Shown here: piece by piece, positions 2,998 through 24,042 of the stretch
How positions within the stretch are numbered: the stretch's first letter is position 1
Layout of the letters: each line of letters opens with the position of its first letter
Virus record (IMG/VR): IMGVR_UViG_3300033141_000489
Coordinates: 1-24,174 of that record
From: a virus
DNA: 24,174 nucleotides
Direction: 5' to 3' (one strand)
The notes under the pieces: model-generated
Databases searched by the model: none
Told to the model about the DNA's origin: nothing
What the model saw: only the letters and a program-made list of their open reading frames with translations
Made by a program: the position numbers and the translations under genes

Positions 2998-4494
2998 ATG
3001 AGTAAAATAAGATTTGAAATAACCACAACACCAAGCACACCACCAACAGATAAAGTTTTTGTTTACATAGATGAAAGTGATAATCACATCAAGACTATTG
3101 ATGATACAGGAACAGTTACAGACTTAACCGACACAACAGCATACACAGACCAAGAATTTGCCGATAAAGTGGGAGCAGAAACAGAGTTGACTGGGGTTAT
3201 GTCAATAGAAGATATTGTTTCTCTAAATACGGATATAAAAAAGATAGACATTATAGAGTTTAACTACTTTATACAAGGGACTAGATATAGTTATGCCGGC
3301 GGGACAGCAATAAGCCCAACAATCGGAGCAGGCGACAGCTCGACATGGGTGGGAGTAGATAGCTCTGGATTACTTTATAGCGAAACAAAATTCACAACAG
3401 AGCAAAATAAAACAATTCTGCCTCTTGCAAGATTGCAAGCAGTTCAAGGACAATCAGGATCAGGAAGTGATTTACAGCCTCCATTGCACTTAACATATTC
3501 TGAAAGTCAAAACGGTTTTGTAGACAGAGAATGGGTCGAGGGAGTTATTGGCGCGTTATATCAAACAGGTGGAACTTTCTCAGAGAATGCAACAAATGCA
3601 CTACAAGTAGACCAAACATCAGGCTCTTTTCATAATGCTCAAAGAAAACACCTCGACATAACAGGAAGTTTAAATATCGAGGCTTCTGCTGTGTATCATG
3701 TTTCTGGAGCGCCGACAGTTCAAACAAGAGCGACATTAATAATTCCTAAATACTATGATAATGGCACAGACATAGTGGCGCTTGGCAATAATAAATATGC
3801 TTCACACACATTACTAAGAAGTCCGAAAGCTGATGATGTTTTTTTCCTTGTGTATTCAAATGCTGAATATGCATCACAAGCAGGAGCAGAACAAGCACCA
3901 ATAGACTATTCTGTTTTTGTAGACCAAGCTACCTCTAGTTTAATACCTGTTGCAAGATTTGTATTAAAAGGTGATAGCACAAATATTATAACGATAGTTG
4001 ACGAAAGACCGTCCATCGGAGCAACACAATCGGCTATCATCGGGACAGCTACCGTTCAGCAAGTGTACGATAACTCGACAAACCCTGAAATCATAACAGA
4101 CTCTACGAGAGGTGCTTTAACGGTACAAGAGGGAACAGCAGACGATGCAGGACTAGTATATGAGGGCAGAAACAACGCAGGAACAGTCACTTCTAATGTA
4201 AATGGAGCAGGTGCAATTAGAGGGAGTGTAGCCTCAGAAGATAACACGATAGACTTTAGAACAGGCACACACTTTACCTTAACAGCAACCGCAGCAACAA
4301 TGGGAACTCCAACGGTTACGGGATGTGTAGGTCAAAGTGGTACAATTACGATTACAACAGCGGAAAACATTACAGGATGGGACGGCTTATATTACTTTCC
4401 ACAAGACACAGTTCCAACGGACTTAACAGGGATTGAAATATTCGGCTATTTTGTAGAAAGTCTTACAGATATAAGAATAGGAAGGGTTCAATAA
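2998..4494 (+). CDS. Fibre/appendage-like virion protein
   Basis: The 498-residue protein is rich in Thr, Ser, Ala and Gly with beta-strand periodicity, as in phage fibres. It has three visible parts: a short N-terminal attachment-like segment (MSKIRFEITTTPSTPPTDKV), a middle domain with many aromatic strands, and a C-terminal beta domain. That last part runs from about 418 (DFRTGTHFTLTATAATMGTP) through GQSGTITITTAENITGW to IFGYFVES, a pattern common at the ends of marine phage fibre proteins. Translation uses ATG 2998 with TGGAGA upstream. The stop overlaps the next start (TAATG at 4492-4496), so coupling with the propeller gene is likely. Its place among head genes suggests a head fibre or decoration, but a tail fibre cannot be excluded. 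Confidence 0.55.
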   Translation: MSKIRFEITTTPSTPPTDKVFVYIDESDNHIKTIDDTGTVTDLTDTTAYTDQEFADKVGAETELTGVMSIEDIVSLNTDIKKIDIIEFNYFIQGTRYSYAGGTAISPTIGAGDSSTWVGVDSSGLLYSETKFTTEQNKTILPLARLQAVQGQSGSGSDLQPPLHLTYSESQNGFVDREWVEGVIGALYQTGGTFSENATNALQVDQTSGSFHNAQRKHLDITGSLNIEASAVYHVSGAPTVQTRATLIIPKYYDNGTDIVALGNNKYASHTLLRSPKADDVFFLVYSNAEYASQAGAEQAPIDYSVFVDQATSSLIPVARFVLKGDSTNIITIVDERPSIGATQSAIIGTATVQQVYDNSTNPEIITDSTRGALTVQEGTADDAGLVYEGRNNAGTVTSNVNGAGAIRGSVASEDNTIDFRTGTHFTLTATAATMGTPTVTGCVGQSGTITITTAENITGWDGLYYFPQDTVPTDLTGIEIFGYFVESLTDIRIGRVQ

Positions 4495-5492
4495 TGTCAA
4501 TGATGGTGTGTGCGAATGGCGGTAGCGAAAGTGAGCCGACAGGCAGTAATCTAGCTCTACTTGATTCGTATACAAGCTCTTCTTTAAACGCTGCATCAGG
4601 AATTGCAATATCTGGAGATGTCGCATATGTGGCAAGTGTAACAGCGGATTCAATCACCTCCATTGACATTTCCGACCCAACAAATTTAATAGAACTAGAC
4701 TCCCACGCAAGCTCTAATCTAAATGTTGCATATGGAATTGCAATCTCAGGAGATGTTGCATATGTGGTAAGTATTGTAGCAGACTCTATTACTTCAATAG
4801 ATATTTCTGACCCGTCTAATTTAATAGAACTAGACTCTTATGCAAGTTCTACCCATTTAAACGGTGCTTATGGAGTTGCAATATCTGGAAATGTTGCATA
4901 TGTGGTAAGTCTTACATCGGACTCTATCACCTCGATTGACATAACTGACCCCTCTAATTTAGTAGAGTTGGATTTTTATTCAAGTTCTAGTTTAAACGGT
5001 GCTTTCGGAATTGAAATATCTGGAAATGTTGCTTATGTAGTGGGTACAGTATCTGACGCTATTACCTCAATCGACATTACTAATCCAGAAAACCTAGTAG
5101 AGTTGGATTCTTATACGAGTGCAAACCTCAACAACCCAAAAGATATAGCAATCTCGGGAGATGTTGCGTATGTGGCTTGCTATGATTCCAATGCTATTAC
5201 ATCAATAGATATTTCTAATCCATCTAATTTAGCGGAGCTTGATTCTTATGCTAGTGCTACACATCTATCAGGAGCTTATGGAATTGCAATCTCAGGGGAT
5301 GTTGCATATGTGTCTGGGTATACTTCACTTTCTATCACCTCAATAGATATTACAGACCCAGAAAATTTAGCAGAGATAGATTTTTATACGGGAGCTAGTT
5401 TGAATGGAGCAAGACATATTGCAATCTCAGGGAACGCTGCTTATGTAGCGAGTTATACAGCAGATTCAATAACTTCAATTGACATAACATAA
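4494..5492 (+). CDS. Seven-repeat LVIVD beta-propeller protein
   Basis: After an ~18-residue leader (MSMMVCANGGSESEP) the 332-residue product consists almost wholly of seven tandem ~45-residue repeats. Each reads roughly LDSYxSSxLNxAYGIAISG, then a VAYVVS strand, then DSITSIDISDPxNL. This is the LVIVD repeat pattern, and seven copies would make one closed seven-bladed beta-propeller. The family is often surface-exposed and used for binding. The start overlaps the upstream stop and has SD GGAAGGG 7 nt before the ATG. Function is unknown: a capsid-exposed adhesin or fibre tip is my inference from context. A related seven-repeat block occurs in the 1091-residue protein at 19043. Confidence 0.75.
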   Translation: MSMMVCANGGSESEPTGSNLALLDSYTSSSLNAASGIAISGDVAYVASVTADSITSIDISDPTNLIELDSHASSNLNVAYGIAISGDVAYVVSIVADSITSIDISDPSNLIELDSYASSTHLNGAYGVAISGNVAYVVSLTSDSITSIDITDPSNLVELDFYSSSSLNGAFGIEISGNVAYVVGTVSDAITSIDITNPENLVELDSYTSANLNNPKDIAISGDVAYVACYDSNAITSIDISNPSNLAELDSYASATHLSGAYGIAISGDVAYVSGYTSLSITSIDITDPENLAEIDFYTGASLNGARHIAISGNAAYVASYTADSITSIDIT

Positions 5493-7201: not shown

Positions 7202-8092
7202 ATGGAACAACATAACAAATGTACTCAATGCAACAAAATAATAACAAAAGCAAAAAATAAATTTTGCAATAGAGAATGCTACTTACTATCTCATAAGATG
7301 AAATTCAGCACAATAGAATGTGCAAAGTGTGGAAAAGAATTTAAAAAGCAAACAACATCTATAAAATACGATAATAATTACTGCTCTAGCAAGTGCAGGA
7401 CCAAAAAAGAAAGAGTTTTAACATGTATAGTCTGTGATGTAAAGTTTTGTGCCTTCCAGTATAGAAAAGCAAACAATAAAAAAGGCTTCACAATAATAAG
7501 ACCATTTAAAAAAGTATGTTCAAAGAAGTGTCATTATGAGTTTTATAGAACGGACCAAAACAGAAAAGATAAAATATCAAAAGCATTTCTAGGAGAAAAA
7601 CACCCTATGTGGGCTGGTGGAATTTCACAGCACAACAGCAGAGGTTCATCTTGGGCCACCATCAGAGAAGAAGTTTTTAAAATTAAAGGACACTGTTGCG
7701 AAAAATGCAAAATCAACAGAACGGACCATAAAAACAAATATGGGATGGACATTCACATAGACCATATTATTACATACCATTCTTTTGATACTGAAAAAGA
7801 AGCAAATGAAATTACTAACCTAAGACCTTTGTGTATATCATGCCATGGGAAAGAAGGAAAAAAGACGGGCCACGGAAAGTATAAAAAGAAAAAAGATGAA
7901 TTGCTCTTAGCAAAATTTAAAGCAACAGGCGTAAATGGATTTAAAGAATTGCAAGGAATAAAAAACGATTATGAAAAAGTTGGCAATCACAAATCTAACA
8001 TAAGAGAAGTTATGAAAAAATATAATGTTAGCAAAGATACGATAAGAAAGATTTCAAATGGAATTCATTGGTCCAACAAATATTTAACTTAG
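7202..8092 (+). CDS. HNH homing endonuclease with multiple zinc knuckles, NUMOD3 and HTH (HNH2)
   Basis: The 296-residue protein has several N-terminal Cys-pair zinc motifs (CTQC at 7-10, then CAKC, CIVC and matching Cys pairs to about 110). A NUMOD3-like GEKHPMWAGG follows near 131-140. A canonical HNH core has zinc Cys near 164-168, HIDHI with H185/D187/H188, NLRPLCISCHGKEGK near 205-220. The C-terminal helix-turn-helix (REVMKKYNVSKDTIRKISNG) ends in a typical W-containing strand. The order zinc fingers, NUMOD3, nuclease, HTH is that of phage mobile HNH enzymes. It is strongly lysine- and AT-rich. It lies between MuF and scaffold genes with its own promoter-leader, and SD AGGA lies 7 nt upstream. 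It is probably intact and active, but the target is unknown. Confidence 0.88.
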   Translation: MEQHNKCTQCNKIITKAKNKFCNRECYLLSHKMKFSTIECAKCGKEFKKQTTSIKYDNNYCSSKCRTKKERVLTCIVCDVKFCAFQYRKANNKKGFTIIRPFKKVCSKKCHYEFYRTDQNRKDKISKAFLGEKHPMWAGGISQHNSRGSSWATIREEVFKIKGHCCEKCKINRTDHKNKYGMDIHIDHIITYHSFDTEKEANEITNLRPLCISCHGKEGKKTGHGKYKKKKDELLLAKFKATGVNGFKELQGIKNDYEKVGNHKSNIREVMKKYNVSKDTIRKISNGIHWSNKYLT

Positions 8093-9444: not shown

Positions 9445-10131
9445 TTAAAATAAACGTCCGATTTCATTAGCAAACTGTATTGGATTTTTAGCGCCTTTTG
9501 ATAAGTTACAACCTCTACAACTCCAAACAACATTATCTAAAGTGTGAACTCCGCCTTTAGATAATGGCTGAACGTGGTCTAAATGAGTTCCATTCTTACT
9601 GCTAAAATCTAGTTTTTCTTTGCAGTAGTAACATTTATAATTTTGTTTTATTTTTAATGCAGATAAAGACTCTCTATTAACAGTTCCATCTTCAGTAGAT
9701 TTTTTAATCGCTCTTCTTTTTAGGGTAGAAATTCTCAATCTTTCTCTATTGCTAATTAAATAATTCTCTCTGTTTTCTAAATATTTCTTTTTTCTTTTTT
9801 GTGCTATTAATTGTTTATGATTTTTTCTATATTCAACGAGATAGGTAATCTTCTCTTCTCTATGTTCAGATTGATGAAGTTTTATTCTTTTTAAAATATG
9901 CTCTTTATTAGCAATATAATATTCTTTCTTAGCTTTTTTTAAAGTTTCTTTATTTTCTGTTTCCCATTCCTTTCTTTTTTTGGTGAAATGTTCTTTATTT
10001 TTAGAGATATAATCTTTTTTAATAGCATTAATGCATGGATAGCATTGTCCTCTATACCCATCTAAGGAGTCTTTTCTTTTTGGAAAATTTAATAATTCTT
10101 TTGTGTTTTTACATTTTGAGCAAGTTTTCAT
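9445..10131 (-). CDS. HNH homing endonuclease with N-terminal zinc site (HNH3)
   Basis: The 228-residue protein has an N-terminal four-Cys zinc knuckle (C4, C7, C30, C33). About 100 residues of Lys/Glu/Tyr-rich repeating helix follow (units such as YYIANKEHILK, YLENRENYLISNRE). A classical C-terminal HNH nuclease has C167/C170, HLDH with H183/D185/H186, N200, and C205/C208. This architecture is common in phage free-standing HNH genes. It is very AT-rich and opposes the late genes, so it depends on its own leader. The capsid gene has a separate promoter beyond it. SD-like AGGG lies next to leader repeat 2. No disruption is seen, so it is probably functional. Confidence 0.9.
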   Translation of the reverse strand: MKTCSKCKNTKELLNFPKRKDSLDGYRGQCYPCINAIKKDYISKNKEHFTKKRKEWETENKETLKKAKKEYYIANKEHILKRIKLHQSEHREEKITYLVEYRKNHKQLIAQKRKKKYLENRENYLISNRERLRISTLKRRAIKKSTEDGTVNRESLSALKIKQNYKCYYCKEKLDFSSKNGTHLDHVQPLSKGGVHTLDNVVWSCRGCNLSKGAKNPIQFANEIGRLF

Positions 10132-18681: not shown

Positions 18682-19043
18682 TGGCACAAGCAGAAGTTTT
18701 TGAAGTAATTGGTCACATTAAAGTAGTAGCAGGACAAAGCTATAAAACAACAGATATACCAACAGGCATGGAAGTTGTTGTTTTAGTAAAAGGAACTCTC
18801 CAATACGGAAAAGTCTTAGATGAAGATGGAAATCAAGAAACTTATGCAGATGAGACATTGAAAGTTGCTCGCTCTATTGTCAGAGGTGTTAGATACACAG
18901 TAACAAAAACAGGAGTTACATACCCATCTCCTAATGTATCCGGAGTATGGCAAGAATTCACCGAGATAGCTTTTGATTCAGCAAGCACATATTTGTTTCA
19001 TGATGATGGAATAGTAGCATACGGACTAAAGGTAACGCCATAA
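18681..19043 (+). CDS. Small tail-tip-region protein, unknown
   Basis: The 120-residue protein (MAQAEVFEVIGHIKVVAGQS, TTDIPTGMEVVVLVKGTLQY, YLFHDDGIVAYGLKVTP) is mainly beta-strand. Both ends overlap neighbours by TAATG, so it is tightly coupled to the tape measure and to the large fibre protein. Its place suggests a tail-tip or fibre-attachment adaptor. I do not recognise a family. SD GAGGAG precedes the start. Confidence 0.6.
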   Translation: MAQAEVFEVIGHIKVVAGQSYKTTDIPTGMEVVVLVKGTLQYGKVLDEDGNQETYADETLKVARSIVRGVRYTVTKTGVTYPSPNVSGVWQEFTEIAFDSASTYLFHDDGIVAYGLKVTP

Positions 19044-22000
19044 TGAAAAATTCAAAACAAACAGTAACGACTTTATCAAGAAGCAATATTATAAGCTTGT
19101 ACCCAGAGTGGAGTTCAACTACAACATACGAAACTGAATCAGAGGTATCTAATCCCACTTATCTTTCTACAGTAAGAGTCGGCAACTATTTATACCGCTC
19201 AATGAGTGAAGATAATCTCAATAACGAGCCTCTTTCAAATCCAGACTTATGGTTTAAATGGGAAGTTTCAAACATTTACGCAATGCTAGATTTTAAAAAA
19301 GCCACAGAAACAGTATGGGATGATGATGGAATTGTAGAATTTGAAAAAGGCGACAGCGATACTCTAGTTTTAGGAAACATAAAAGCCGGTGCAGTAACAG
19401 TAGATGTTGTCGCCCCTAAAAATGGTGTAATTGATGGCTTGGTTTTAACAGAGAGTGATGAAAACTATCTATTATCCAAAGGAAGTTGGTACGCACAAAA
19501 CGCCTACACAAAACAAAATGTAAACTGGACTTTTGATAACACAATCTTAACAGCAAGCAAGGATAATTATATTTATCCAGAGTATACAAAAACAAGCGGG
19601 GGATTAAACGGTGTATCGGCAATTCGCATTGACGGAAATATTGCCTATGTGATAAGTTCAGAATCAAACTCAATAACATCACTGGACATTTCTGATTCAT
19701 TGAATGTTAGAGAACTTGATAAACTTTTCAGCGAAAACATAAAGAATGTGGCAGATATTGCAATCAGCAACTCAAAAGCATATATAGCAGGCTCAACAGG
19801 CACAAAAGGAACAATAACAATAATAGATATTTCGGATTCAACCTCATTAGATGAAATAGGAAATTTTACTTTTTCAAGCCTACAGTACGCAACAGGAATC
19901 GCTATTGACGGAACAGAGGCTTATGTGGCTGGTAGTACATTTACAAATGGGGATGTAGTTTCGCTTGATATATCAAATTCACCCACTTTAATAGAATTGC
20001 ATGCAATTTCTTATGTTGGATCAACTGCAAGGGGAATCGCAATAGATGGAACAGAAGCTTATGTGACAGCAGGTAATTTAATCGCATCAATAAATATAGC
20101 AACCCCTACAGCACTTGCGAAGCTAGATAGCTACACTTCCGCAAACTTAAATGGGGCGACAGGAATCGCAATAGACGGCACAGAAGCTTATGTTGTAAGT
20201 ATAGCCGCTAATTCAATCACATCTATAAACATAACAACTCCAACAGCATTAGCGGAGCTAGACAGCTACACTTCTTCTAGTCTAACTTGGGCGACAGGAA
20301 TCGCAATAGACGGCACAGAAGCTTATGTGACGAGTCAAGTTAGTGATTCTATCACATCTATAAATATTACAACTCCAACAGCATTAGCGGAGCTAGACAG
20401 CTTGTCAAACTCTAGTACAAATGGAGCAATAGGAATTGATATTTTAGGAACAGAAGCATTTATTGTAAGTTCTCACTCTGACAATATTACATCTATAAAT
20501 ATCGCAACTCCTACAGCACTTGCGGAGATAAGCCACTTTCCAGAAACCACAGCAAAAGTAATCTCAGTACCGACAGGATTCGACCAACCAACAACACCAG
20601 ATGGCGACTTAGCAATATGGATGGTAACAACAGATGCAAGCAATCTTTTTGTATCTCAAACAGACCTAAGGACAACAATAACAGATGATGTATTAGATGG
20701 ATACACTCAAACAAAAACTTTCTATGATGGCTATAGAGGTGCATGGCTTGTAGACTTACCAAACATAGGAGAAATAGTAAGAGTTTCATTTTTTGAAGCA
20801 AACAACACAGGGACATCTTGCGGGGCTTTACTTTCAGGCGCTCTTCAAGAAATGGGTAAAACCCTCAATGAGGTAAATATAACTCAAATTAGAGACGGTT
20901 CTACACTAAAAAGAGGTGCAAGTTTTGGCACGACAATGAATAAAAACTTAGTGACCATTACTGCAAATCAGGCAGATGATGATACAGGCAGTGACATGGC
21001 TTATATAACTGAACCAGATGATGATGTTCACCAACATATTATAATCATGGGTCAACATACAATATCTCACAATGAGTCGAATGCTGACCAAAATATAATA
21101 AACTGGACAGTAGAGGGAGAGAAAGTTATTAACGGCTCACCTCTTGGGCTGACATCATTTCCTTTCTTCCAACTAGGTGTTGACCCACTATCAATTATAA
21201 AAGGCTCAGGAAGTGCATACCATGAAAGAGATACAGCAGCAACCTACATAGACAAAGACTACTTAACTCTAAAAACAGCAGACATAGACGAAGTAGTTTA
21301 TGAAAATGAGGGGATGAGAGGGAGCTGTGAAAGTACAAACATCCTAACATATAGTGAAGATTTAACAAATGCTAAATGGACGGAAGATAATGCTTCTGCT
21401 GCATTAGATGCAACACTATCATCAGATGGTATAACTCAATGCTATAAAATTACTTCAACAGTAGATAATGGCAGAATAGAAAATGAGAATATCTCAATTA
21501 CTTCTAATAGTGTATATTCTTTTTCACTTGATATAAAAAAAGATGTGGGTGATAAGCCATCTATGGTATGTGTATTTGTTGGTGGAACTCCACAAACTTT
21601 AACGATTGATTATACATTTTCAACAGATGCACTAGATTACACAATAACAGGTGGATTGGGGAATCTGATATCATTAAGCAGGGAGCTGTTAATAGACGGT
21701 TGGGTTAGAATAAAAGCATCTTTTGAAGATATCAGCACTAACACTACGGCTAGAATGTATATAAGACCAGAAACGGGTGGCTTTAGTTCAGTCTTTTCTA
21801 ATTTCGCGCAAGTAAAAGAATCAGCTTTCCCAACAAGCTACACTCCAACAACCACAGCCCCAGTAACAACATCAGGAGACATAATAAGCTATGACACAGC
21901 AAGCAACATTCCTGACTTAACAGGTGATTGGTCTATGAAGTGGACGGGTACTCCTTATTTTGAGGCAGGAGATTCTGTACTTCAACAAATTTTACGAAAC

Positions 22001-22318
22001 TATACTAATAGCACTAATTTTATCAGTCTGTATATAGAAAATGACCTTTTAAAATTCGATATGCGACTCGATGGAGTAAACGAAAGAGTTACAAGTATAT
22101 CAGATATAACATCAGGACAAGAAATAGAGGCTAAGATTGAATGTATCAGCGGAATAGTTAAAATGTATATAGATGATGAAGAAACAGATTCAGGCGATTA
22201 CTCTGATATTTTAACTGTACCTTTAACAGATATAACATATATTGCTAGTAAAAATGATGGCGTACCAAACACAAACTCAGTAATATATACAAAAGCTCAC
22301 TCATGGGAGGCATTATAA
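19043..22318 (+). CDS. Receptor-binding tail protein with LVIVD propeller and carbohydrate-binding-like domains
   Basis: The 1091-residue protein has at least four parts. The first 110 residues (YPEWSSTTTYETESEV, then YLYRSMSEDNLNNEPLSNPD) resemble a chitin-binding-like phage spike module. About 187-495 are seven LVIVD repeats of the GIAIDGTEAYV ... SITSINITTPTALAELDSY type, so one seven-bladed propeller. A middle beta region follows. About 762-940 (NILTYSEDLTNAKWTEDNAS, then FAQVKESAFPTSYTPTT) looks like a CBM-type jelly-roll, and about 943-1091 (DWSMKW, IENDLLKFDMRLDG, KMYIDDEETDSGDYSD) a LamG/concanavalin-like domain. Host-surface recognition is inferred. Blades 5 and 6 share 40 identical bases (20154-20193 and 20289-20328), a sign of recent repeat expansion. 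Confidence 0.75.
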   Translation: MKNSKQTVTTLSRSNIISLYPEWSSTTTYETESEVSNPTYLSTVRVGNYLYRSMSEDNLNNEPLSNPDLWFKWEVSNIYAMLDFKKATETVWDDDGIVEFEKGDSDTLVLGNIKAGAVTVDVVAPKNGVIDGLVLTESDENYLLSKGSWYAQNAYTKQNVNWTFDNTILTASKDNYIYPEYTKTSGGLNGVSAIRIDGNIAYVISSESNSITSLDISDSLNVRELDKLFSENIKNVADIAISNSKAYIAGSTGTKGTITIIDISDSTSLDEIGNFTFSSLQYATGIAIDGTEAYVAGSTFTNGDVVSLDISNSPTLIELHAISYVGSTARGIAIDGTEAYVTAGNLIASINIATPTALAKLDSYTSANLNGATGIAIDGTEAYVVSIAANSITSINITTPTALAELDSYTSSSLTWATGIAIDGTEAYVTSQVSDSITSINITTPTALAELDSLSNSSTNGAIGIDILGTEAFIVSSHSDNITSINIATPTALAEISHFPETTAKVISVPTGFDQPTTPDGDLAIWMVTTDASNLFVSQTDLRTTITDDVLDGYTQTKTFYDGYRGAWLVDLPNIGEIVRVSFFEANNTGTSCGALLSGALQEMGKTLNEVNITQIRDGSTLKRGASFGTTMNKNLVTITANQADDDTGSDMAYITEPDDDVHQHIIIMGQHTISHNESNADQNIINWTVEGEKVINGSPLGLTSFPFFQLGVDPLSIIKGSGSAYHERDTAATYIDKDYLTLKTADIDEVVYENEGMRGSCESTNILTYSEDLTNAKWTEDNASAALDATLSSDGITQCYKITSTVDNGRIENENISITSNSVYSFSLDIKKDVGDKPSMVCVFVGGTPQTLTIDYTFSTDALDYTITGGLGNLISLSRELLIDGWVRIKASFEDISTNTTARMYIRPETGGFSSVFSNFAQVKESAFPTSYTPTTTAPVTTSGDIISYDTASNIPDLTGDWSMKWTGTPYFEAGDSVLQQILRNYTNSTNFISLYIENDLLKFDMRLDGVNERVTSISDITSGQEIEAKIECISGIVKMYIDDEETDSGDYSDILTVPLTDITYIASKNDGVPNTNSVIYTKAHSWEAL

Positions 22319-22692
22319 TGCAAGATTTAATATTTTGGGGAACAGACCACGAAGCCTTTTTAGAAGAGGCTCACGAAAAAAGTCCAGAGTTAGTAGGTCA
22401 AGATGAAAACAGCTATTATAGAAAATACTCTCAGATACCTATAGTAACAAACGAAGATGGCGAGTTTATGATTAAAGTCAGAGCTTCAACTACGAAAGTG
22501 GGTTATTTTGCAAGACTTCAAACCATAAAAAACTTAGGAGCTTACGAAGCCGTTTTAAAATCACCACCAAAAAGAAAAATATATGATAGAATCTATGATC
22601 AAACACCGTATGATGTAGATGATGGTGAGGGCGGAACAATAACAGTAACGCCATCGCCAAATTTCGGTGAGTTTTTTAATAAAGGAAAATAA
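22318..22692 (+). CDS. Small tail-associated protein, unknown
   Basis: The start is placed at ATG 22318, overlapping the previous stop, because GGGAGG (22305-22310) lies 7 nt upstream. An in-frame ATG at 22303 would hide that SD in the gene. The 124-residue product begins MQDLIFWGTDHEAFLEEAHE and has KVRASTTKVGYFARLQTIKN and a PSPNFGEFFNKGK end. It may be a fibre-assembly or tail-tip accessory protein by position; no family is recognised. Confidence 0.65.
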   Translation: MQDLIFWGTDHEAFLEEAHEKSPELVGQDENSYYRKYSQIPIVTNEDGEFMIKVRASTTKVGYFARLQTIKNLGAYEAVLKSPPKRKIYDRIYDQTPYDVDDGEGGTITVTPSPNFGEFFNKGK

Positions 22693-23042
22693 TGCTGACA
22701 TACAAAGATCTTACCCCAATTCAAAAGAAGTTTATTTGTAACGGGTGTGGTTCTAAAGGCGGAATAATCAAAGTTCCAAACTTTTTATTTCTAGCCTCTT
22801 GCAATAAGCATGATTTCTATTTCTGGCGCGGCGGTGATTCTTTGGAGTTTATTATGGCGAATGTGTTGTTTTATTGGTTTATGCTGAAAGATGCATGGAG
22901 TGCCTTATGGTACAAAAGACTGTACTATATATTTTGGGCAACAGCTTATTTTATAGCTGTAATGATTGGCGGATGGAGAGTTTTTAACTTTTCTTTTAGA
23001 CAGAAAGATTTAATTGACTTACAAAGGGAAATGACAACATGA
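22692..23042 (+). CDS. Phospholipase A2-like membrane protein
   Basis: The 116-residue protein has FICNGCGSKGGIIKVPNFLF and SCNKHDFYFWRGG. C16, C19 and C37 with G23-G24 recall the PLA2 calcium loop. H40-D41 in the C..HDF.Y/FW.GG motif match the PLA2 catalytic His-Asp site. A hydrophobic span at about 77-98 (LYYIFWATAYFIAVMIGGWRVF) predicts one transmembrane helix. It opens the small-gene cluster that ends with the DUF5675 protein, so a role in host membrane damage at lysis or entry is inferred. The starts overlap (TAATG). It is shorter than secreted PLA2s, and activity is not proven by motifs. Confidence 0.6.
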   Translation: MLTYKDLTPIQKKFICNGCGSKGGIIKVPNFLFLASCNKHDFYFWRGGDSLEFIMANVLFYWFMLKDAWSALWYKRLYYIFWATAYFIAVMIGGWRVFNFSFRQKDLIDLQREMTT

Positions 23043-23233
23043 AAAGAAGTGGAATAGTAATAACAGAGACATTAGTTTTAGCAATATTAGGGTTAATCAC
23101 AGCATTTTATGGCGGAGCAGTCACAGAGGCAGAAACAGAGGGTATGATAACAGACAGCATCAGCTATGAAGTTAATGCAAGTGGTGGAAGAATTTGTAAA
23201 GAATACTATCCTAAAATCATAATAACTGATTAA
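23039..23233 (+). CDS. Small membrane-anchored lysis-region protein
   Basis: The 64-residue protein overlaps the previous stop (ATGA). It has a hydrophobic N-terminal span (VITETLVLAILGLITAFYGG) flanked by basic KR, then a polar tail with one Cys (GGRICKEYYPK). One transmembrane segment with a periplasmic tail fits a holin-like or small spanin-like protein, but there is no lipobox. Function is not known. Confidence 0.6.
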   Translation: MKRSGIVITETLVLAILGLITAFYGGAVTEAETEGMITDSISYEVNASGGRICKEYYPKIIITD

Positions 23234-23263: not shown

Positions 23264-23611
23264 ATGACTACTTCCGAGGTAGAGAAAATCACAATAGAGA
23301 ACGCTATTTCGATAAAGGGTCTTGCTACGGTATCAGACCAGATACTGAAAGATGTGGATAGAATCGTGAAACACTTAGATAAACCATTAAGTCCTTTGAA
23401 AATTTTACTCATAGGGACGGTAATAACGGGAGTTTTGTCTTTTAATACCTATATGCTATTGGAGATACAGAAACTTAGACTTGATGTGGATACTCACAAA
23501 ACAGAGCATATCGCAGATGTCCAAAAACTAGAGGAAGCTGTAAAAAAAAACACCGAACAAGATAAGTATATAATCGGCAGGCTCAATCCTAACAGAGTAA
23601 TAGAGCAATGA
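23264..23611 (+). CDS. Single-pass membrane protein, holin- or spanin-like
   Basis: The 115-residue protein has an amphipathic N-terminal helix (about 1-42) and one transmembrane span near 43-66 (PLKILLIGTVITGVLSFNTY). A coiled-coil tail follows (EIQKLRLDVDTHKTEHIADV, QKLEEAVKKNTEQDK). This layout occurs in small phage holins and inner-membrane spanins next to endolysins. It overlaps the next gene by 4 nt (ATGA). The specific class cannot be decided from sequence. Confidence 0.6.
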   Translation: MTTSEVEKITIENAISIKGLATVSDQILKDVDRIVKHLDKPLSPLKILLIGTVITGVLSFNTYMLLEIQKLRLDVDTHKTEHIADVQKLEEAVKKNTEQDKYIIGRLNPNRVIEQ

Positions 23612-24042
23612 TCCTAAAACTAAAAACATTCAAAACCTCAGCAAAGTCCACCATCGGAACACTTACAATTGATGAAGTTGCGGAATGTTTCACTTTAGAA
23701 GATACTTTCAGAGAAGAGAAAATCGCAGGAGAGACTCGAATACCTAGAGGCTTATATAAAATCAAGTTAAGAACACACGGCAGTATGCACAAAGATTATA
23801 AAAAGAAGTTTGGAGACTTTCACAAAGGTATGCTCTGGCTTCAAGATGTGCCTAACTTTGAATGGATTTATATTCACTATGGGAATTATGACTATAATAC
23901 AGATGGCTGTATCTTGGTTGGATCAAGTGCTGATTTAGAAAGAGACATGGTGGGGAATTCAGTAAACACTTACAAGAAGTTATACGAGAAAGTCGCAAAC
24001 GCTCTTGTAAGCGGTGAAGAAGTTTTTATCAAGGTTGAGTAG
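23608..24042 (+). CDS. DUF5675 protein, probable lysis enzyme
   Basis: The 144-residue protein fits DUF5675: STIGTLTIDEVAECFTLEDT, KIAGETRIPRGLYKIKL, MLWLQDVPNFEWIYIH and YGNYDYNTDGCILVG, ending in a helix and strand. The conserved H90..GN..(D/N)TDGC101 arrangement recalls the His/Cys pair of L,D-transpeptidase-like folds. The family is common in phage lysis regions, so cell-wall cleavage or modification is the inferred role, though biochemistry is not established to my knowledge. It overlaps the upstream membrane protein and, tail-to-tail, the minus-strand gene beginning beyond the window. Confidence 0.7.
   Translation: MILKLKTFKTSAKSTIGTLTIDEVAECFTLEDTFREEKIAGETRIPRGLYKIKLRTHGSMHKDYKKKFGDFHKGMLWLQDVPNFEWIYIHYGNYDYNTDGCILVGSSADLERDMVGNSVNTYKKLYEKVANALVSGEEVFIKVE

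Follow-up and report, generated by a model that had tools for sequence, protein, structure and literature searches.

The window analyzed here is a whole IMG/VR record of 24,174 bases (36.9% G+C), in which an earlier note had described a phospholipase A2 (PLA2)-like gene. The ORF lies exactly at 22692-23042 on the plus strand and encodes 116 aa, with both motifs named there, CNGCGSKGG (residues 16-24) and SCNKHDFYFWRGG (residues 36-48). It is preceded by AAAGGA, shares 1 base of its start with the stop of the upstream ORF (taATG) and 4 bases of its end with the next start (ATGA), and these overlaps make the gene look translationally coupled to its neighbors. No signal peptide was evident in the protein. 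The order in the window is tail genes, the PLA2-like gene, two genes for small transmembrane (TM) proteins of 64 and 115 aa, and DUF5675; the ORF that follows is on the opposite strand, as confirmed by contig L072 (100% identity over 793 bases). Another viral contig, L001, carries the identical stretch (5683/5683 bases). Across other viral contigs the PLA2-like protein has one identical copy (100%) as well as relatives that are 40-54% identical to it, which, together with motif residues invariant in 41/41 family members, argues that the ORF is not a chance one. The features are as follows.

22303-22692, plus strand: 129-aa ORF after a long tail gene, no family match, its stop overlapping the start of the PLA2-like gene
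22692-23042, plus strand: gene for the 116-aa PLA2-fold protein (ORF, structural model and family profile)
22740-22751, plus strand: N17-G18-C19-G20, motif resembling a calcium loop, invariant in 41/41
22800-22802, plus strand: C37, likely disulfide partner of C19, invariant in 41/41, aligned with C61 of 1FAZ
22809-22814, plus strand: H40-D41, invariant in 41/41, aligned by HMMER with H64-D65 of 1FAZ
22821-22823, plus strand: F44, equivalent of Tyr52, four residues after the His (Tyr in 39/41)
22860-22862, plus strand: N57, aligned with D85 of 1FAZ (SvPLA2), the dyad Asp in 37/41
22908-22979, plus strand: helix of residues 73-96, the third core helix of the PLA2 fold (DSSP of the model, PLA2 alignments, hydropathy)
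23039-23233, plus strand: 64-aa protein with a single TM segment at its N terminus, overlapping the PLA2-like gene by ATGA; weak match to phrog_13280 (E 0.012)
23264-23611, plus strand: 115-aa protein with one TM segment followed by a charged stretch, no confident family; the layout would suit a holin accessory protein
23608-24042, plus strand: DUF5675 (PF18925, E 2.1e-29), probably L,D-transpeptidase (YkuD)-like by a low-confidence model; candidate murein enzyme

Elsewhere in the window, two proteins (4494-5492 and 19043-22318) contain numerous repeats of the form DISDPTNLIELDSY...GIAISGDVAYV, and the larger one has weak matches to LVIVD and lactonase propeller families; a similar-looking gene of 324 aa adjoins the PLA2-like gene in L077. 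Among the structural genes, ORFs at 7202-8092 (plus strand) and 9445-10131 (minus strand) have numerous CxxC and HNH-like motifs (DHIITYH, LDHVQPLSKGG) and look like inserted homing-type endonucleases.

Single-sequence searches with the window protein gave no match in Pfam, PHROG, NCBIfam or the PDB, and the single phage record matched, weakly (E 0.2), was that of Thiohalocapsa phage LS06-2018-MD03, annotated as a "DNA binding protein". The family was gathered by iterated scans of IMG/VR, begun from this record and then run from alignments, and only these iterated searches revealed it. Identity to the window protein is 54% for L077, 51% for L080 and L011, 46% for L078 and L081, 44% for L012/L079, and lower for the others. 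A search of plasmids for relatives yielded zero matches, and one of genome contigs yielded a single relative, in the Arcobacter MAG contig L038. The family includes gp09 of Vibrio phage 1.097.O, already annotated as a "phospholipase A2 domain protein".

Some family genes have interrupted frames. The L050 gene (1010-1350) has five in-frame TGA codons, every one of them at a family glycine position and some at invariant ones, and the single in-frame TGA of the L046 gene (5947-6270) likewise falls at a family glycine; when TGA is read as Gly (table 25) both become intact members and the open frames become much longer. These two look like phages of bacteria with TGA as a glycine codon, which we take to be Gracilibacteria/Absconditabacteria. 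The reading frame of the PLA2-like gene is broken in L085 (5995-6250), with an in-frame TAA directly after the HD motif, and in L086 (6001-6522).

A PLA2 profile search, negative with the single protein, was positive with the profile of its relatives. The best PDB matches of the family profile were 1FAZ (E 1.7e-7) and 4AUP (1.8e-7). A 24-member profile matched the PLA2 chains 1FAZ (1.8e-7), 4AUP (4.3e-6), 8K1W (0.001) and 7YGK (0.066), the sole other match at E below 10 being an aminotransferase (1.3), and all four chains matched by a 31-row profile were PLA2s. With a five-row profile, ten matches were obtained, headed by 1FAZ and 4AUP at about 1e-4 and followed by seven APOBEC3 chains (0.12-0.67) and, last, another PLA2 (1.6). 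When ten relatives were scanned against Pfam, PF09056 was found in six (E 3.3e-6 to 0.16), always under its curated cut-off of 29.4 bits; the L012 protein scored 28.1 bits (3.3e-6) and that of L011 26.6 bits (9.4e-6). The same scan gave weak matches to PF06951 in three relatives and to DUF1353 in five, and a match to PF08398 in one. A patatin-like phospholipase was also considered and rejected, as the 116-aa sequence lacks the GxSxG nucleophile motif.

The AlphaFold model of the window protein (pLDDT 89.5, pTM 0.81) contains the three-helix core of the PLA2 fold. Its closest structures by VIA-align were the group XIV-type PLA2s 4AUP (Z 10.0; 91 residues aligned at 2.4 Å), 8K1W (9.1), 7YGK (8.7) and 1FAZ (8.7; 91 residues at 2.8 Å), followed by an unrelated chain at 4.5, so that the outcome which the earlier note would have counted against its idea, a model with no PLA2-like fold, did not occur. 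In a Foldseek search of the PDB, PLA2s filled the first three rows, yet with weak E-values (0.11-1.1). Among viral models, an uncharacterized phage protein scored best (4.7e-6), and there were also matches to two that bear the name PLA2, likewise from phages (1.6e-3 and 4.0e-3). The NGCG motif stands where the calcium loop is expected, but model confidence is low there, averaging only 60 in the block of residues 21-30. The profile matches to solved PLA2s, the fold match, the conserved NGCG and the His-Asp pair together demonstrate that the PLA2 resemblance is real homology, and they are in line with the resemblance to a calcium loop and His-Asp site first noticed in the sequence.

The same note had the PLA2-like part joined to one TM helix, and this was not supported. 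The best 19-residue Kyte-Doolittle mean of the window protein is 1.50 (residues 80-98), below the usual TM threshold of 1.6, and the supposed TM helix is the last core helix, inside the region aligned to soluble PLA2s; a TM anchor is not indicated. The maxima of near relatives are 0.10 (L077), 0.33 (L011), 0.83 (L079) and 1.03 (L080). Among eight members measured together, the distant L084 (1.69) was the sole one above 1.6, and four others (L002, L016, L018, L041) exceeded it in an earlier set of 40, so hydrophobicity of the last helix turns up repeatedly but is not characteristic of the family. It is possible that this helix gives the window copy a stronger grip on membrane surfaces.

Conservation was counted over 41 distinct intact members, after removal of near copies, of L008 and L009 (cut before residue 57), of L034/L069 and L037/L071 (gene cut by the contig end), and of L046, L050, L085 and L086 with their in-frame TGA or broken frames. 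Invariant in all 41 were N17, G18, C19, G20, C37, H40, D41, G47, V90 and G94. Equivalences to 1FAZ were counted from the printed HMMER profile alignment; a C19-C37 disulfide is likely from the sequence, and C45 and C61 form a disulfide in 1FAZ. The window protein thus has the His-then-Asp of group XIV PLA2s, and Asn57 in place of their dyad Asp. Asn57 is shared by L077, L080 and L084, whereas the other 37 members have Asp, and Phe44 is shared by L080, the other 39 having Tyr. As the three other Asn57 carriers are just 36-54% identical to the window protein, Asn57 is neither a sequencing slip nor fresh decay and, judged from this distribution, is a maintained variant. On the family tree it needs at least one change and is clustered (1/500 shuffles gave as low a number), the branch joining the carriers being weak (35/76). 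In secreted PLA2s the dyad Asp supports the His, and the dyad mutant D85A of the PLA2 TtaP, an Ala substitution, is reported to be inactive. Catalysis by the window copy is therefore uncertain: the earlier suggestion that the protein attacks phospholipids is less certain here than in the relatives, as the Asp partner of the His is Asn57.

To place the gene in context, its surroundings in sister phages were compared. Downstream of the PLA2-like gene, L011 carries genes for a TM/coiled-coil protein, another TM protein and a Phage_lysozyme (PF00959, 1.1e-10), while L077 and L080 carry TM proteins followed by a lysozyme-like gene, assigned to PHROG 7 endolysin (2.4e-19) in L077 and to lysozyme-related PHROGs in L080. 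In L042, weak Rz-like matches and an endolysin-type peptidase (PHROG 894) lie beside the PLA2-like gene. With local models built for four types of murein enzyme, matches were found within six genes at 18 of 50 loci, two of the 18 being duplicates. After deduplication, 18 of 43 loci had such a match anywhere in their available sequence, and in 13 of these it lay within 2.5 kb downstream, where random placement expects 4.5 (0/5000); with five near copies left out the count was 8/13 against 3.3 expected (15/5000). These distance counts are descriptive and biased upwards, since the models were seeded from the same loci. A PHROG scan covered the downstream side alone, with no upstream control, and comprised 83 proteins hand-picked from 123 neighbors and from some further downstream, leaving out minus-strand ORFs and near copies; among these chosen neighbors were the endolysin families 7 (7 members), 33083 (6), 894 (3) and 315 (1), and the best 25 of 78 families also included tape-measure, portal and DNA-metabolism families. 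On our reading, the neighbors in L061 and L081 look like DNA-metabolism genes (SbcD- and Dda-like families are among the PHROG matches), and in L004 and L006 the PLA2-like gene lies three genes before a baseplate-like gene. The proposal that the gene belongs to the lysis cluster is thus favored by the TM proteins, DUF5675 and the lysozymes of sister phages, and weakened by relatives located away from lysis genes; a lysis role is a plausible and the best reading of this neighborhood.

The murein enzyme of the window itself would be DUF5675. Its model has low confidence (65.7), and the first 31 of 32 fold matches are of L,D-transpeptidase/carboxypeptidase types, with Pgp2 (Z 7.8), Csd6 (7.7), DpaA (7.2) and Tlde1a (5.9). 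A relative matches the Tlde1 domain at 3.1e-4, under its cut-off, and the invariant H90 and TxGC fit the motif of the L,D-transpeptidase fold; a sequence search of the PDB with DUF5675 alone found nothing useful. These data are only suggestive of an L,D-transpeptidase (YkuD)-like fold. The protein (23608-24042) may be an unusual endolysin, and in the Thiohalocapsa phage (L002) the local DUF5675 model matches the site of a gene annotated as a peptidoglycan hydrolase.

A search for relatives of the window DUF5675 found four loci, one of which, L074, has the order 593-aa gene (tail-type, on our reading), DUF1353 (PF07087, 3.8e-17), TM proteins of 63, 136 and 72 aa, and DUF5675. Compared to the window, DUF1353 replaces the PLA2-like gene and there is one extra small TM gene. 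BLASTP gave no alignment between the TM proteins of the window and their L074 counterparts, or between the PLA2-like protein and the L074 DUF1353, so the comparison rests on order and layout, DUF5675 and the profile match. By hhalign, seven DUF1353 sequences aligned to the 31-row PLA2-like family at 93.7% (E 1.9e-7, 85 columns) with the HD motifs in register, whereas the unrelated control pair of DUF5675 and DUF1353 gave 0.3%. Searched against the PDB, a DUF1353 profile matched no PLA2; the window protein did not match DUF1353, and its relatives reached at most 17.6 bits against a cut-off of 22.5. On the profile alignment, DUF1353 is a distant homolog of the phage family. Its member TtaP has been proven experimentally to be an active PLA2, the one such case known in DUF1353. 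PHROG 1158, labeled "tail assembly chaperone", matches the L074 DUF1353 protein (1785-2174) at 5.5e-26, and because DUF1353 has a proven PLA2 this label is doubtful in many phage records.

The position of DUF1353 varies among phages. It adjoins a holin in Fusobacterium phage FNU_1P, is reported to stand two genes ahead of an amidase in phage FNU1, and is reported next to a head-to-tail joining gene in phage KIRK. In CP30A, pv27 and Bakedbeans it is away from annotated lysis genes, the nearest in pv27 being an endolysin-labeled gene among baseplate genes, and in two Helicobacter prophages its surroundings are mostly unannotated.

The best reading of the window gene, which we hold to be somewhat better than an even bet, is that of a small PLA2-type, lipid-attacking protein of a lysis cassette. 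A soluble member of the PLA2 superfamily, of the group XIV (Streptomyces/Tuber) type, would be made within the phage lysis operon and collect in the cytoplasm, inert because free Ca2+ is low there and a disulfide between C19 and C37 would hardly form. Once the membrane proteins of the cassette permeabilized the inner membrane, it would meet Ca2+ and oxidizing conditions, dock on phospholipid leaflets and hydrolyze or destabilize them, while a murein enzyme, DUF5675 here and a lysozyme- or peptidase-type enzyme in sister phages, opened the wall. We infer such a latent PLA2 from the fold, the operon, the invariance of the two Cys and a sequence in which no signal peptide is evident. Homology, fold, conservation of the calcium-loop-like motif, His-Asp and Cys pair, operon context and replacement by DUF1353 in the slot are computed; timing, Ca2+ gating, disulfide, lysis role and catalysis by the window copy (N57, F44) would be its inferred parts.

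It is rather unlikely, though worth weighing, that catalysis is gone or almost gone in the window copy and its Asn57 sisters, and that these proteins act as Ca2+- and lipid-binding membrane perturbers, like the Lys49 venom PLA2-like proteins. The presence of Asn57 in four members and of Phe44 in two of them, a minimal reconstruction with one change on the weak joining branch, and a last core helix more hydrophobic in the window copy than in near relatives are consistent with such a loss, and venom PLA2-like proteins that lack catalytic activity are documented. However, the Asn57 members keep H40, D41, NGCG and C19/C37, which would be dispensable in proteins free of catalysis, and Asn could still hydrogen-bond the His.

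We consider it improbable that the protein is carried in the virion or injected, and helps DNA or tail across a membrane at entry, as is thought for the PLA2 domain of parvovirus VP1. On our reading, many relatives have the gene behind tail genes, in Vibrio phage 1.097.O it lies between terminase and head genes, and parvoviral and densoviral proteins are among the weak fold matches. Against this, most near relatives examined have the gene before TM and murein-enzyme genes, and the product is a small free-standing protein with no structural domain, its parvoviral fold matches having E above 1.

The chances seem slim that the gene is a moron with no part in lysis, its product being either a released effector or an enzyme that modifies the lipids of host membranes in the course of infection or lysogeny. 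Phage-borne secreted PLA2s are reported as lysogenic-conversion factors for the Staphylococcus sciuri phage phi575 and, as cited in that work, for streptococci, and TtaP reportedly stays in the cell, its loss giving no envelope phenotype. However, the window protein has no evident signal peptide, unlike the phi575 Pla2, and the gene overlaps tightly with neighboring operon genes and occupies the slot that holds DUF1353 in L074. That an unrelated small protein resembles PLA2 motifs by chance, which the failure of the window protein alone to match any family might suggest, is very unlikely given the independent profile and fold matches and motif residues invariant in 41/41.

Beyond the preferred reading of a PLA2-type lysis protein in the window, we tentatively propose, as possible rather than probable, that interchangeable Ca2+/His PLA2s (the PLA2-like family and DUF1353) are a standard phage lysis part that breaks phospholipid membranes after holins admit Ca2+ and oxidant, and that the Asp-to-Asn change in the window sub-lineage marks either a PLA2 that naturally works with an Asn dyad or a former enzyme turned lipid-binding lysis protein. 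If true, a lipid-hydrolyzing enzyme would be a further way of breaching the outer membrane, common and testable together with DUF1353, the "tail assembly chaperone" annotation of PHROG 1158 would be corrected, and the Asn57 variant would serve as a natural experiment on the extent to which a His-Asp dyad is required. Ca2+/His PLA2s are already known, as are phage-borne PLA2s (those of S. sciuri and streptococcal phages and the annotation in Vibrio phage 1.097.O) and, as a proposal for phage WO, a PLA2 lytic cassette of another fold. A literature search that subscription papers largely lay outside did not turn up any phage lysis protein reported to be a His-type PLA2, or any description of the PLA2-like family, its Asn dyad variant or its lysis setting.

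Among known systems, the phage family shares fold and motif order with the group XIV PLA2s (PF09056; Streptomyces violaceoruber 1FAZ, Tuber borchii 4AUP), including CxxHD with the Cys of the probable disulfide, the V..fG end motif and, in most phage relatives, the helix bearing the dyad Asp. It differs from them in being phage-encoded, in NGCG as the calcium-loop-like motif, in the lack of an evident signal peptide, in the Asn at the dyad position of the window copy and in relatives that score under the Pfam cut-off. Within the family, gp09 of Vibrio phage 1.097.O differs from the window copy in having D57 and Y44, and its gene follows a lipoprotein-like ORF between terminase and head-completion genes. 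DUF1353 (PF07087; TtaP; PHROG 1158) likewise comprises small free-standing phage proteins with the order HD...D, with TD instead of NGCG ahead of the active site and, in TtaP, reportedly without the disulfide cysteines.

Phages are known to breach the outer membrane by spanins and, less often, by membrane-active peptides. Rz/Rz1 spanins and other outer-membrane lysis factors remove the outer membrane barrier at lysis. The PLA2-like protein may share this task with the spanins, whereas it has no lipobox and does not consist of an inner and an outer membrane partner. It would not have to take their place, since L042 carries weak Rz-like genes beside its PLA2-like gene. The PLA2 of phage WO is a patatin-type enzyme that relies on Ser and Asp for catalysis and does not have the Ca2+/His PLA2 fold. 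Its cassette is a proposed lysis cassette with PLA2 activity beside a holin-like TM/coiled-coil protein, and the enzyme is proposed there as an endolysin replacement, unlike the arrangement in the window.
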